A stretch of DNA of 64,000 nucleotides, taken from Candidatus Faecalibacterium faecigallinarum. Lineage in GTDB: Bacteria > Bacillota > Clostridia > Oscillospirales > Ruminococcaceae. The stretch spans positions 1-64,000 of the forward strand of contig DWWN01000032.1 of the NCBI GenBank assembly GCA_019119685.1, in the 5' to 3' direction. The notes under the pieces were generated by a model that saw nothing but the letters and a program-made list of their open reading frames with translations, had not been told where the DNA came from and ran no database searches. This document shows positions 5,054 to 28,145 of this stretch, in pieces. A program made the position numbers and the translations under genes. Positions within the stretch are counted from its first letter, which is position 1, and each line of letters opens with the position of its first letter.

Positions 5054-5074
5054 CGGAATCCCTCCTTTGACTCT

Positions 5075-5103
5075 AGTATAGTGCAAATGCACACACGTGT
5101 CAA
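5075..5103 (-). promoter_or_regulatory. Promoter of the LacI regulator gene with an operator inside the spacer
   Basis: Minus strand TTGACA-17 nt-TATACT; the spacer contains GTGCATTTGCAC (5081-5092). Confidence 0.7.
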
Positions 5104-5260
5104 ATCAAAAAGTGCAAAAACGTGGATTTGCACATTTGCACCATCTTAATTTGTGCAATCATACAAATTCACAGAAAGAGTACCGTATTCCAGAAAAACA
5201 CTGTTGACTTTTGCCACATAGCGTGGTATAAAAATGACTGTAAGCATTTTACATTTGCAC
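5081..5260. promoter_or_regulatory. Cluster of ATTTGCAC/GTGCAAAT operator half-sites
   Basis: GTGCAAAT 5081-5088; GTGCAAAA 5112-5119; ATTTGCAC 5126-5133 and 5134-5141 (tandem); GTGCAATC 5153-5160; ATTTGCAC 5253-5260, in the divergent intergenic region of a LacI gene. Confidence 0.65.
5204..5232 (+). promoter_or_regulatory. Promoter of the ABC transporter/GH32 operon
   Basis: TTGACT-17 nt-TATAAA upstream of the 5347 start. Confidence 0.7.
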
Positions 5261-5346
5261 ACGACGCAGGAACGGTTACCCCTGTGATGTATGCAAACGC
5301 AAAATGAACACCCATCCATTATAACAAAAAAGGAGGAATCGAACAC

Positions 5347-6294
5347 ATGAAAGCGAAAGCGTCTTCCTCGGGGGCGGTGGCGGTGTCGGCCAGCCAGCGT
5401 GTGCACAATACGGGCGTCTATATTGCGCGGCACTGGCAGCTGTATCTGATCTTCATTCTGCCGGCTGTGGTGCTGACCCTGATTTTCAAGTACATGCCTA
5501 TGGGCGGCATCCTGATCGCTTTCCAGGATTATAACCCCTTCAAGGGCATCCTGGGCAGCGAGTGGGTCGGTCTCGAGCACTTCCAGCGCTTCATGTCCTC
5601 GCCGGATTTCCAGCGCTACCTTGTCAACACCCTCAAGCTGAGCGTCTACGGCCTGCTGTGGGGCTTCCCCATCCCCATCATTCTGGCTTTCCTGCTCAAC
5701 CGCATCGAGAGCAAAAAAATCAAGCAGAAGATCCAGCTGGTGCTGTATATGCCCAACTTCATCTCGGTCATCGTCCTCTGCGGTATGGTCCGCGTCCTGC
5801 TGTCGGTCACCGGCCCGCTGAACGGGCTGCTGCACACCAGCATCAACTTTATGACCATCCCCGAGGCCTTCCGCCCCATCTACATCATCAGCGGCATCTG
5901 GCAAGGTGCAGGCTGGGCCTCCATTATGTACACAGCTTCTCTCTCCAACGCCAGCAAAGACCTGAAGGAAGCGGCCATGATCGACGGTGCAAACCTGCTC
6001 CAGCAGATTATGACAGTCGAGTGGCCCGCTATCAAGGATATGGTGGTCATTCAGTTCATCCTCCAGGCCGGCAACATCATGAGCATCGGCTTTGAAAAGG
6101 CCTACGCCCTCCAGACCGACCTGAACCTGCAGACCTCCGAGATCATTGCTACCTATGTGTACAAGCGCGGCCTGATCGACGGCGACTACAGTTTCTCGAC
6201 GGCAGTCGGCCTATTCAACACGGTGGTCAACGTCATCCTGCTGGTAGCCGTGAACAAGATCGTCGCCAAGATGAACGACGGCAAGGGATTGTAA
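5347..6294 (+). CDS. Sugar ABC transporter permease (CUT1, LplB-like)
   Basis: YLIFILPAVVLTLIFKYMPMGGILIAFQDYNPFKGI; EAAMIDGANLLQQI EAA loop; SD AAGGAGG upstream. Confidence 0.92.
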   Translation: MKAKASSSGAVAVSASQRVHNTGVYIARHWQLYLIFILPAVVLTLIFKYMPMGGILIAFQDYNPFKGILGSEWVGLEHFQRFMSSPDFQRYLVNTLKLSVYGLLWGFPIPIILAFLLNRIESKKIKQKIQLVLYMPNFISVIVLCGMVRVLLSVTGPLNGLLHTSINFMTIPEAFRPIYIISGIWQGAGWASIMYTASLSNASKDLKEAAMIDGANLLQQIMTVEWPAIKDMVVIQFILQAGNIMSIGFEKAYALQTDLNLQTSEIIATYVYKRGLIDGDYSFSTAVGLFNTVVNVILLVAVNKIVAKMNDGKGL

Positions 6295-22997: not shown

Positions 22998-25307
22998 ATG
23001 GTCTGTGCTCGATGCAAGAAAAGACCGGCCATTATCTTCATCCAGCGGATGGAGAACGGCCAGATGAAGCAGGAGGGCTACTGCCTGCACTGCGCCCGCG
23101 AGCTGCACATCAAGCCGGTGGACGATTTGATGAAGCAGTTCGGTATGTCCGAACAGGACATGGACAATATGGAAGACCGGATGGACAGCATGATGGAGGA
23201 GATGGGCGAGGGGGGCAACCCCTTTGCCGCCCTGATGAAGATGCAGGACGACAGCGACGGCGGGGATGAGGACGGCTTCACCCCCGGCGGCAACGCCACC
23301 TTCCCCCTGAGCATCGCCGGGCAGGAGGGGGGCCAGAACAGCAGCCAGGCGGCCCCCAAGAACGGCAAGAACGGCAAAAAGCCGCCCCGCCGCAAGTACC
23401 TGGATACCTACTGCGAAAACCTGACCGGCAAGGCCCGGGACGGCAAGCTGGACGACATCATCGGGCGGGACCGGGAGATCTACCGGACCATCCAGATTTT
23501 GTCCCGGCGGCAGAAGAACAACCCCTGCCTGATCGGCGAGGCCGGCGTGGGCAAGACCGCCATCGCCGAGGGCATCGCCGAGCGGATCGCCCGCGGACAG
23601 GTGCCGGCCCAGCTCAAGGACAAGGAAATCTATCTGCTGGACCTGACCGCCCTGGTGGCGGGCACCCAGTTCCGCGGCCAGTTCGAGCAGCGGGTCAAGG
23701 GCCTGCTGAACGAGGTGAAACAGGCCGGCAACGTGATCTTGTTCATCGACGAGATCCACACCATCACCGCCGCCGGCGAGAGCGAGGGCGCCATGAACGC
23801 GGGCAACATCTTAAAGCCCGCCCTCTCCCGCGGGGAGATCCAGGTCATCGGCGCGACCACTTTCTCGGAGTACCGCAAGTATATCGAGAAGGACCAGGCG
23901 CTGGAGCGCCGGTTCCAGCCGGTGCGGGTGGAGGAGCCCAGCATCGCCGACACCATCGCCGTGATGAACGGCATCAAGCGTTACTATGAGGACTACCACC
24001 ACGTCCAGGTGCCCGCCGACGTGGTCCAGATGGCAGTGACGCTGTCCGAGCGGTATATCACCGACCGCTATCTGCCCGACAAGGCCATCGACCTGTTGGA
24101 CGAGGCCTGCGCCAGCTGCAACCTGGCCCACCCCGAGATCTCGGCGTTCCTGGAGGCACAGAAGGAACTGGACGCCCTCAAACAGGAGGAGTCCGAGATG
24201 GAGTCCACTCCCACCAACGAGGCCATCGACTACGAGGCGGTGGCCGAGCGCAAGACCCGCATCGCCCAGCTGGAAGCCGAGCTGCCCGCCAAGCAGGCGG
24301 CCGCCAGCGAGATCAAGGTCTCGATGGACGACCTGGCCCGGGTGATCGAGCTGTGGACCGGCATCCCCGCCGTCAAGATCCGGGAGACGGAATATGTCCG
24401 CCTGGCCTCCCTGGAGGACGAACTGAAAAAGAAGATCGTCGGCCAGGACGAGGCTGTCCACCTGGTGGCCCAGGCGGTCAAGCGCAGCCGCGCCGATCTG
24501 GCCGGCCGCCGCCGTCCCGCCAGCTTCATCTTTGTGGGCCCCACCGGCGTGGGCAAGACCGAGCTGGTCAAGCAGCTGGCAAGCCAGCTGTTCAGCGGGC
24601 CCGACCCGCTCATCCGCCTGGACATGAGCGAGTATATGGAAAAGTACGCCGTCAGCCGGATGATCGGCTCGCCCCCGGGCTATGTGGGCTATGAGGAGGC
24701 CGGCCAGCTGACCGAGAAGGTCCGCCGCCGCCCCTACAGCGTGGTGCTGTTCGACGAGATCGAAAAGGCCCACCCCGACGTGCTGAACATCCTGCTGCAG
24801 ATTTTGGACGAGGGCAAGATCAACGACGCCCAGGGCCGGACGGTGGACTTTTCCAACACGGTCATCTGCATGACCTCCAACGCCGGCTCGTCCGAGCAGG
24901 GCGCCGGGGGCCTGGGCTTCAACAAGAGCGCCGGGGAGATGACCGCCGACAAGACCATGAAGGCCCTACGCCAGTTCCTGCGGCCCGAGTTCCTGGGCCG
25001 TGTGGACGAGATCGTGGTCTTCCAGCCCCTCAGCGGCGAGACGCTGGAGAAGATCGCGGCCCTCATGCTGGAGGAGTACCGCCCCGGCATGGAGGCCAAG
25101 GGCATCGCCTACAGCTACACCCCCGCGGCCCTCAAGGCCCTGGTGGCCCAGTGCGAGGGCGGCAAGTTCGGCGCGCGCGACCTGCGCCGCACCATCCGCA
25201 AAGCGGTGGAGGACGAAGCCGCCACCCGCATCATCGATGGCCAGCTCACCGCCGGCGGCAGCCTGACGGTAGACGCCGAGGACGGCAAGGTCGTTCTGCG
25301 AACCTGA
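22998..25307 (+). CDS. AAA+ ATP-dependent Clp protease ATP-binding subunit with N-terminal zinc finger (ClpE-like)
   Basis: MVCARCKKRPAIIFIQRMENGQMKQEGYCLHCAREL (CxxC...CxxC); two AAA+ modules (GEAGVGKTAIAEGIAERI; GPTGVGKTELVKQLASQLF); no classical Clp-N repeat. Confidence 0.92.
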   Translation: MVCARCKKRPAIIFIQRMENGQMKQEGYCLHCARELHIKPVDDLMKQFGMSEQDMDNMEDRMDSMMEEMGEGGNPFAALMKMQDDSDGGDEDGFTPGGNATFPLSIAGQEGGQNSSQAAPKNGKNGKKPPRRKYLDTYCENLTGKARDGKLDDIIGRDREIYRTIQILSRRQKNNPCLIGEAGVGKTAIAEGIAERIARGQVPAQLKDKEIYLLDLTALVAGTQFRGQFEQRVKGLLNEVKQAGNVILFIDEIHTITAAGESEGAMNAGNILKPALSRGEIQVIGATTFSEYRKYIEKDQALERRFQPVRVEEPSIADTIAVMNGIKRYYEDYHHVQVPADVVQMAVTLSERYITDRYLPDKAIDLLDEACASCNLAHPEISAFLEAQKELDALKQEESEMESTPTNEAIDYEAVAERKTRIAQLEAELPAKQAAASEIKVSMDDLARVIELWTGIPAVKIRETEYVRLASLEDELKKKIVGQDEAVHLVAQAVKRSRADLAGRRRPASFIFVGPTGVGKTELVKQLASQLFSGPDPLIRLDMSEYMEKYAVSRMIGSPPGYVGYEEAGQLTEKVRRRPYSVVLFDEIEKAHPDVLNILLQILDEGKINDAQGRTVDFSNTVICMTSNAGSSEQGAGGLGFNKSAGEMTADKTMKALRQFLRPEFLGRVDEIVVFQPLSGETLEKIAALMLEEYRPGMEAKGIAYSYTPAALKALVAQCEGGKFGARDLRRTIRKAVEDEAATRIIDGQLTAGGSLTVDAEDGKVVLRT

Positions 25308-25331
25308 AAACAAACCCAAACCTCAACCAAG

Positions 25332-25358
25332 AGCGCCCGCGCAAGCGGGCGCTTTTTT
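25332..25358 (+). terminator. Rho-independent terminator of the clp gene
   Basis: AGCGCCCGC GCAA GCGGGCGCT TTTTT. Confidence 0.85.
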
Positions 25359-25543
25359 GTTGCTTTTTTGGCCCTCTCCGGCCCTGCGGGCCACCTCCCC
25401 CGTAAACGTGGGAGGCCGAGCCTAAAGGTTACGTTTTCGCTCTCCCGCGTGCGTGGGAACCTCCCCTCTCCGTCACAGCGCAAAGCGCTGTGCCACCTCC
25501 CCCGCGGGGGGAGGCAAGCGTACCTGCGTCAATTTTGGCAAAG

Positions 25544-25584
25544 TTTGTGGTAAGGAAAAGCTAAAAACTTCGCCTTACCACAAA
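25544..25584. repeat. Inverted repeat with 12-bp perfect stem
   Basis: TTTGTGGTAAGG (25544-25555) / CCTTACCACAAA (25573-25584), 17-nt loop. Confidence 0.8.
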
Positions 25585-25672
25585 GTTTTCCTTTACCCAC
25601 GGGCGTAAACTTGGCTCTCCCTCCGGGAGAGCTGGCGAGACGCCCATAAGGGCGGCGAGACTGAGAGGGGAG
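25572..25672 (+). repeat. Left copy of imperfect direct repeat flanking the AT-rich islet
   Basis: GCCTTACCAC...CACGGGCGTAAACTTGGCTC...GGCGGCGAGACTGAGAGGGGAG; the last 22 nt are identical to 26923-26944. Confidence 0.75.
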
Positions 25673-25790
25673 CCTCCCACGCGTGCGGGGGAGGTGCCGC
25701 CGCAGGCGGCAGAGAGGGCCAGTGCGCTTTTTGCTCCCCTCTCAGGCGCTTCGTCCTTGCCGCTTTATGCAGTGACAAAGAAGGTTACAG

Positions 25791-25820
25791 AAAAAGCCCG
25801 CAGGGGGACACCCTGCGGGC
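25791..25820 (-). terminator. Terminator of the 25835 gene
   Basis: Minus strand GCCCGCAGGG TGTCC CCCTGCGGGC TTTTT. Confidence 0.8.
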
Positions 25821-25834
25821 GATATGGATAAGCG

Positions 25835-26224
25835 TTATGCCAGGAAGGTAAACCAGACAAAGGAGGCGGCTACGGCCAGCATCATCACAATCAGTGCGCC
25901 ATTGGCAAAGCCTTTGCTGACCGGATAGTCCGAGTTCTCAAACAGGATCATCCGGCGCAGATCGTCCCGGGTCTCTTGGCTGACCGGGCCGTAGAGGTAC
26001 TGCCAGGCCCCGTCAAAGCCATTCAAAAGCAGCAGGTCGTGAGCCATGCGGGCTATGATGAAAGCTGAAAAGCCAAAAACAAAAATCCAAACATCGAACC
26101 ATAACCCCAGCGGCTCCAGGGCCACCCGCAATTTGTGAACTGGTGAAGAAGAGAGGATGCTGATACAGACCAATGTCGCTATAAAATGATTAAACAACGG
26201 GCCTCTCTGCTTGAAAAATTCCAC
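25835..26224 (-). CDS. Hypothetical small membrane protein
   Basis: 129 aa, GTG start, hydrophobic segments (LFNHFIATLVCISILSSS; FDVWIFVFGFSAFIIARM; GALIVMMLAVAASFVWFTFLA); followed by a terminator. Confidence 0.6.
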   Translation of the reverse strand: MEFFKQRGPLFNHFIATLVCISILSSSPVHKLRVALEPLGLWFDVWIFVFGFSAFIIARMAHDLLLLNGFDGAWQYLYGPVSQETRDDLRRMILFENSDYPVSKGFANGALIVMMLAVAASFVWFTFLA

Positions 26225-26244
26225 TTTATCTGCCTCTCTTTTGC

Positions 26245-26550
26245 TTAACCACCTACAGATTGAAAATAGTCAACATCTCGTGCTATTTGATCACGGAACC
26301 TGTCATATTGTTCAAAATACTGATGGTAGCAATGTGTATAATAGCGGTTATCAAACGAAAACCATACTTCATATGTGACAATATTTATTTTTATGTACTC
26401 GCAACCAAACACAAGATTGTTGAGACCAACTGTGGTTATATAATCGACTACGGACGAGAGCAGAGCTGCTGGTTGACTCCAAAATACCGTTGCAAGAATC
26501 TCACCGAGTTGAGCTGTACTCTGTAATTTTCTTATTTCTTCTACGGGCAT
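26245..26550 (-). CDS. Hypothetical protein
   Basis: 101 aa, same strand and immediately upstream of the 25835 gene; no clear SD; overlapping plus-strand ORF considered less likely. Confidence 0.45.
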   Translation of the reverse strand: MPVEEIRKLQSTAQLGEILATVFWSQPAALLSSVVDYITTVGLNNLVFGCEYIKINIVTYEVWFSFDNRYYTHCYHQYFEQYDRFRDQIARDVDYFQSVGG

Positions 26551-26614
26551 AAAGTCTGTTGATTGTGAACCAACATATATATGTTTATCCTGTCAAACGT
26601 GAAGAACTAAGAGC

Positions 26615-26634
26615 CATTCAGCGGCCGCTGAATG
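26615..26634. repeat. Perfect 20-bp palindrome
   Basis: CATTCAGCGGCCGCTGAATG, about 65 nt upstream of the 26550 start. Confidence 0.85.
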
Positions 26635-26770
26635 TATACCTACATTATATTATACTACATTGTTGCTTCCTTGTATATGCACGGTTTTCACATTTTTTTC
26701 ACACGGTTGTGCGCCATATGCACAAAACACCCCATCCGGGCGCGCCCCCCGGGGGGCTTCAAATGGAAAA

Positions 26771-26814
26771 CGGCTCCTTCTGCTGAAAGCATCCAGCAAG
26801 AGGAGCCGCTTTTT
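26771..26814 (+). terminator. Hairpin followed by U-tract (orphan terminator-like)
   Basis: CGGCTCCTTCTGCTG ... CAGCAAGAGGAGCCGCTTTTT. Confidence 0.55.
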
Positions 26815-26820
26815 GAGTTT

Positions 26821-26944
26821 GCCTTACCACTCACTTTGCCGCCACTGACGGGCGTGCACTTGGCTCCCCCGCGTGCGGGGGAGCTGTCATGCCGCTGTGC
26901 GGCATGACTGAGAGGGCTATTAGGCGGCGAGACTGAGAGGGGAG
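26821..26944 (+). repeat. Right copy of imperfect direct repeat flanking the AT-rich islet
   Basis: GCCTTACCAC...GACGGGCGTGCACTTGGCTC...GGCGGCGAGACTGAGAGGGGAG; has an extra palindrome module (GTCATGCCGCTGTGCGGCATGAC). Confidence 0.75.
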
Positions 26945-27002
26945 AGCCTAAACGCAAAAGCCCCCGTCCATGGACGGGGGCCTTTGCTATGTGCAATGTT
27001 GG

Positions 27003-27185: not shown

Positions 27186-28145
27186 TTATTCGGGGCGGCA
27201 GGCGCGCCGGGCGCGGACCAGCAGCTCGCCGGCCTGGGCGGTGTCCAGGCTGCGGGACAGCGGGCCGGTGCGGTCTCCGGCGCCGGGGCCGGTGTTGCCC
27301 TCCTCCAGGAAGGTGGCCTTGTCCCAGTCGGCGCGGTTGTTCCAGGGGGAGAAGCCCGCCGGGGCAATGTGGGCCCCGAGCCGGCATTCCAGCACAGCGG
27401 TCTTGGCGTGGGGCCGCCAGGGCCGGCCCAGGTAGACCGTGCCGGCGGGGCAGTCCGAGACAAAGTCGCAGTCCCAGAACACAAAGCCTAACCCGTCGGG
27501 CGGGGTGCAGGGGGCGGTCACATAGCCGCGGGCCTCGCCGTGGGCGGTGGGGTTGTCCGCCGAGCGGAGGACGCACTGCTCAAACAGGGCGTCCGCCCCG
27601 CCGAAGATGAAGTCGATGTCGCCGGTGATCTCGCAGCCCTGGTAGTATTGGACGCTGGGCCGCCGGGGGGCAAACACCCGCGGGCCCAGAAAGCCGTCCT
27701 TCTCCCGCTCCTGCTCGGGCAGGGGGGCGCAGAACAGCGTGTCCTGGCTGCCCAGCAGACGCACCCGCCGGAACACCGCCCGCTCGCTGTCCACATAGGC
27801 GGCGATGCCCTGGCCCACGCGCGCGCCGGGGCCGGCGTCGTTCTCGATGGTCATGTCCTCCACCGTCAGGCGCTGGCCGCTGAAAAAGGCGGTCCAGCTG
27901 CGGAAGGTGTGGGTGGGCCGCCCGTCCGGGTGGGGCAGCTTGCCGCCGTCGTTCCAGACCAGGCGGGTCTCGGCCATGCCGGCGCCCCGCAGGGTGATGT
28001 CCCGCTTTTCGCAGGCCAGCTTTTCCCGGTAGGTGCCGGGGCCGATCAGGATCTCGGCGGGGGTGTCGTAGGGGACGGCCAGCACCGCTTCGCCGATGGT
28101 GGCAAAGTCGCCGCTGCCGTTCTGTGCAACTGTGATGGTAAGCAT
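27186..28145 (-). CDS. Pectinesterase-family protein without signal peptide
   Basis: MLTITVAQNGSGDFATIGEAVLAVP...GSQDTLF...GCEITGDIDFIFGGADALFEQC...VYLGRPWRPHAKTAVLEC: pectin methylesterase (CE8) motifs. Confidence 0.93.
   Translation of the reverse strand: MLTITVAQNGSGDFATIGEAVLAVPYDTPAEILIGPGTYREKLACEKRDITLRGAGMAETRLVWNDGGKLPHPDGRPTHTFRSWTAFFSGQRLTVEDMTIENDAGPGARVGQGIAAYVDSERAVFRRVRLLGSQDTLFCAPLPEQEREKDGFLGPRVFAPRRPSVQYYQGCEITGDIDFIFGGADALFEQCVLRSADNPTAHGEARGYVTAPCTPPDGLGFVFWDCDFVSDCPAGTVYLGRPWRPHAKTAVLECRLGAHIAPAGFSPWNNRADWDKATFLEEGNTGPGAGDRTGPLSRSLDTAQAGELLVRARRACRPE

Follow-up and report, generated by a model that had tools for sequence, protein, structure and literature searches.

Why should a short islet with two small open reading frames lie between a Clp-type ATPase gene and a pectinesterase gene? 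In a first-pass annotation of the window (the whole 64-kb stretch of DNA analysed), it had been read as a cassette bracketed by direct repeats of about 100 bp, and, speculatively, as an acquired module of a soluble and a membrane protein serving in toxin/immunity or phage defence. A comparison of strains for its presence or absence, suggested at the same time, bears directly on acquisition. In six congeners (G270, G238, G252, G268, G266, G267) the flanking genes are conserved and only 74-97 bp apart, as against about 1,700 bp here, and the sole content of the gap is a terminator hairpin equivalent to the one on the pectinesterase side of the islet (Table 1). Relative to these six empty sites, the islet and its repeats are an insertion. 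Elsewhere in the window, the only Rfam matches are one tRNA and one S10 leader.

Table 1. Features of the islet and its flanks (positions in the window).
Feature	Position	Strand	Basis
Clp-type AAA+ ATPase, upstream neighbour	22998..25307	+	Pfam AAA_2, AAA_lid_9, ClpB_D2-small; synteny
Terminator-like hairpin 3' of the Clp gene	25329..25356	+	
Full copy of ~205-bp palindromic dispersed repeat, CCCTCTC...CCTTACCAC...CTGAGAGGGG	25464..25671	.	Alignment of 20 copies
Intrinsic terminator of the P1 transcription unit, GCCCGCAGGG...CCCTGCGGGC TTTTT	25796..25820	-	
P1, 129 aa, 2-3 predicted transmembrane helices	25835..26224	-	ORF, homologs, hydropathy, AlphaFold helices
P2, 5'-truncated remnant of secreted protein T (T residues 134-248)	26245..26595	-	Sequence homology
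Upstream region that also accompanies P1 in islets C65 and G254 (71-73% DNA identity)	26587..26733	-	
Right-half fragment of the dispersed repeat (26810-26916) and stray end piece (26920-26944)	26810..26944	.	
Terminator hairpin, pectinesterase side of islet	26954..26987	.	
Pectinesterase, downstream neighbour	27186..28145	-	PF01095, E=7e-44

The imperfect direct repeats reported at 25572-25672 and 26821-26944 are indeed present: they have an exact 22-mer in common (25651-25672 and 26923-26944), and also a 53-nt stretch, 75% identical, at 25569/26818. One possibility is that they define the islet as a mobile cassette, which would be consistent with their flanking position, with the empty site in relatives and with the occurrence of P1 copies at other sites. 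However, they are not specific to it. Alignment of 20 copies from the genome with the two in the window gives a palindrome of ~205 bp, running from CCCTCTC to CTGAGAGGGG with its centre at GTGGTAAGG...CCTTACCAC; the left repeat is the right half of a full element, and the right one combines a separate half copy with an end fragment, so that the window holds one whole and one half element in place of two matching boundaries. In the same genome (G000) there are 19 occurrences of the exact core, GACTGAGAGGGGAG, and none of its backward reading. With 25430-25730 as query, 83 alignments were returned, including several that hit one place on both strands (40 of 95 candidates were scored), and the islet as query gave a similar list of genome copies for its right end; by these searches, which scored part of the candidates, the family occupies about 40 other places in G000. 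Related copies are present in G254, G258 and G270, and the P1 islet of G254 lacks the exact core in its 16.6-kb contig. The repeats are thus a dispersed intergenic family that does not define a cassette; because they are spread genome-wide, they do not establish the islet as a repeat-bounded mobile element, and that explanation is in our judgment extremely unlikely. The family is reminiscent of REP/MITE-like intergenic repeats in being short, dispersed, palindromic, non-coding, present in many copies and often at contig ends, but differs from them in that no transposase or target-site duplication has been demonstrated for it; literature searches on the repeat found no published description. 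Copies frequently stand at contig ends, and the family is likely to break the assembly.

Does the islet hold two genes? Both of the proposed same-strand ORFs are present on the minus strand, but only the 129-aa one (P1) is an intact gene; the 101-aa ORF (26245-26550) is, by its homology, a 5'-truncated remnant. It is the part from 26550 down of a longer frame, P2, which matches residues 134-248 of a 248-aa protein, T, with 41% identity over 115 aa (E about 1e-30). The homology extends 14 residues upstream of the only ATG in P2 (QDKHIYVGSQSTDF versus QFKHRYVGTSATDT), and P2 begins immediately after an in-frame TGA at 26593-26595 that bounds its frame: since the homology continues past the ATG to an in-frame stop, the coding frame of P2 is truncated. 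In G254, T has been cut to its last ten codons, joined at the same TTGACAGGAT sequence as P2, and P1 is intact, from which it follows that decay of T continued while P1 stayed whole. Could P2 and P1 nevertheless be a working unit, with T acting inside the cell as a short form (101-115 aa) that lacks the leader, for example in a toxin-antitoxin pair? The P2 frame is open for 115 codons, and both ORFs lie between a promoter-like site and a terminator; yet P2 starts within the homologous frame, its ATG has no ribosome-binding site (judged by eye), it has no signal peptide, its closest copy is the ten-codon one beside an intact P1, and the T matches include no comparable short T that has a start. 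We consider such a unit very unlikely.

P1 starts with a GTG preceded by AGAGAGG, and its homologs occur in 14 of the 31 genus members (E <= 1e-4), with none outside the genus in a search of 249 genomes of the same family. The closest copy, in G254, is also intact and has 95% amino acid identity, but lies at a different site between unrelated genes; the two are separated by 13 substitutions, 6 nonsynonymous and 7 synonymous, and the dN/dS of 0.25 comes from this single pair. A second copy in the same genome (G000:C65; 51%) is dead and carries a TAA. No usable match to P1 or P2 was found in Pfam, NCBIfam, PADLOC or PHROGs, no relatives of P1, P2 or the T profile were found in viral contigs, and neither T nor P1 was found in a plasmid collection; a weak resemblance of one P1 homolog to YmcE_antitoxin, below the cut-off at E=0.05, was set aside as chance. 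The suggestion of phage defence is left without backing, there being no PADLOC family at E up to 10 and no Pfam match. Structure prediction, also proposed earlier for both proteins, returned helices for P1, but the single-sequence AlphaFold models (mean pLDDT 64 for P1 and 51 for P2) were too poor for a fold search.

The nature of T may be judged from loci in which it is complete. In G262 and G273, a T of 248 aa with a signal peptide directly precedes a P1 homolog; G251, G255, G256 and G261 have a second type (29% identity), and full-length T also occurs in G167, a member of another genus, and in two faecal scaffolds, MT837433 (again with a P1 homolog directly 3') and MT839939. Both scaffolds were deposited as unverified phage; MT837433 holds an identical T with its agr locus, and so may be bacterial. 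The full-length proteins are 241-254 aa long and begin with a hydrophobic leader that ends in AFA/SAA (judged by eye), the leader of the L134 type being Tat-like (TIGR01409); at the C-terminal end there is a conserved YYxHCYH...GG motif. Searches of Pfam and NCBIfam gave no match naming a function for T, P1 or the other partners, and a sequence search of the PDB with T gave nothing significant; order-level matches to the T profile were signal-peptide matches and were ignored.

Behind every full-length T, no more than 30 nt away and in the same orientation, comes a small membrane protein, which is of the P1 type or of types with 93 aa or 264 aa; a further type, of 131 aa, is found after a third T stub. 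These four types have no mutual similarity, and the partner family goes with the T type; among the loci found, none has a full-length T but lacks the partner. At about 15 further loci, a 3' stub of T (about 26-161 residues) is left, always before an intact partner, and the cuts fall at eight or more different points, G000 and G254 counted; many of the Faecalibacterium stub loci are near-identical recent copies, and independent events are fewer than loci. In the Faecalibacterium full-length loci, T sits behind an agr quorum-sensing locus with all four components of the agr type: AgrB (PF04647, E=1e-32), AgrD (TIGR04223, scoring above cut-off), a kinase of the GHKL type that weakly resembles AgrC, and a response regulator of the LytTR type. 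By its position, T would be a candidate for agr control; the islet itself, unlike these loci, has no agr gene, and AgrB was not detectable in the genome that carries it (85% complete). Directly behind one complete agr-T-P1 locus (L133) is a 171-aa exported protein with no assigned family, at 5055-5570.

The explanation that we favour, and think fairly probable, is that the islet is a decayed two-gene antagonism module in which P1 most likely survives as the orphan immunity gene of a bacteriocin-like pair that is linked to agr and hitherto undescribed. The ancestral module would have consisted of T (~248 aa, exported via its signal peptide) followed by P1, a membrane protein protecting the producer. 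It would have landed between the Clp ATPase and pectinesterase genes in the lineage of the window, and the 5' half of T would then have been lost, with its last 115 codons left as P2 and the promoter region, P1 and the terminator retained; P1 most probably still protects the cell against T-secreting neighbours. That T kills competitors, and that P1 gives immunity, are suggested by the architecture: a secreted antibacterial protein with a membrane immunity protein, the toxin lost and the immunity kept, seems the most economical reading. The toxin gene expected for an orphan immunity gene is present at the locus as residues 134-248 only; since what is left of the soluble gene is dead and lacks its 5' part, the islet would hold an orphan immunity-like gene and no working two-gene system. 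The idea of an acquired, patchily distributed islet, toxin/immunity-like in kind, is thus partly supported: the empty site in six relatives and the secreted-plus-membrane pairs of the full-length loci agree with it, but the repeat-bounded cassette and the functioning pair of genes do not survive.

Another possibility is that T and its membrane partner are not antibacterial at all, but a secreted factor with a dedicated processing, anchoring or signalling partner under agr regulation, the stubs reflecting pseudogene decay. T matches no toxin family, agr loci control many non-toxin exoproteins, and a position directly behind T would also suit such a partner. What makes this unlikely, in our view, is that the partner repeatedly outlives T, although a processing factor would be useless alone, and that unrelated partners are swapped with T type, as would be expected of immunity proteins. 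Orphan immunity does leave unexplained the difference in composition within the islet. Its earlier description as AT-rich fits the upstream half, where GC falls to 36-37% (at about 26150-26600) against 63% for the window, but P1 is at 52% (GC3 65%); the P2 remnant has 37% (GC3 29%), and T-partner pairs together are at about 40% in the full-length loci.

How does the proposed orphan compare with known ones? In T6SS arrays, insertion displaces an effector, its immunity gene being kept and the 3' end of the effector pushed back (PMC5361080). Orphan immunity genes in Vibrio cholerae T6SS arrays (PMC5361080) and in acquired interbacterial defence of Bacteroidales (PMC10470768) are alike in that an intact partner outlives the toxin, with 3' remnants of the toxin before it. 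They differ in that the toxin proposed here would be no T6SS effector but a soluble protein, exported by Sec and encoded behind an agr locus, and in that protection is deduced from gene arrangement; the window, moreover, has one orphan gene. Arrays of orphan partners, as in those systems, are seen in Faecalibacterium loci L087, L088 and L090, which have two partner families together: P1 and the partner of 131 aa stand there with a protein of 179 aa, in some cases near recombinase genes; these look like orphan-immunity islands, and the 179-aa protein is possibly immunity-like.

If T acts as proposed, it would work in the manner of the class III bacteriocins geobacillin 26 and alicyclobacillin 24 (NF035925; PMC13176240), which, like the full-length T, are about 240 aa long with an N-terminal Sec signal peptide. 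The C-terminal YYxHCYH...GG motif of T is absent from alicyclobacillin 24 (Ali24). Membership of the geobacillin-26 family was rejected, three T proteins and P2 giving no NF035925 match at E up to 10 (cut-off 40 bits; Ali24 as control, 124 bits), as was a relationship with Ali24 itself (hhalign of the T profile against it, probability 0.1%).

Faecalibacterium is among the most abundant, health-associated gut genera, and no description of the T family was found in the papers searched on its agr systems and bacteriocins. A broader proposal, on which we are evenly divided, is that T founds an undescribed Sec-exported, agr-linked antibacterial family of this genus, characterized by its C-terminal motif and paired with several unrelated small membrane immunity proteins, and that orphan immunity genes, P1 included, record past T-mediated competition in the gut. 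If this is true, there is a quorum-sensing-linked weapon family in Faecalibacterium that is flagged by no protein family library searched, and the islet is an example of immunity genes outliving the weapon and persisting in strains without it. Annotation pipelines would then label truncated toxin stubs of this kind as hypothetical genes.

The signals around P1 have been kept with it. The strong terminator at 25820-25796 that had been attributed to the islet is there, and its counterpart is conserved 3' of P1 in C65 and G254. In the upstream region common to the three islets there is a promoter-like TATACA-17-TATAAT at 26677-26649 on the minus strand, and a pair of repeats, ACCGTGTGA/ACCGTGCAT, 22 nt apart. 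All three P1 islets (window 26650-26710, G000:C65 and G254:C62) have such a pair of 9-nt direct repeats with a spacing of 22 nt, and in two of them both copies have changed together (ACCGTG twice, ATTGTG twice); in sequence terms the spacing may be likened to that of LytTR/AgrA binding sites. A palindrome in the leader, CATTCAGCGGCCGCTGAATG at 26615-26634, is represented in the other islets by a changed but still largely palindromic version; possibilities for it include an operator or a leader hairpin.
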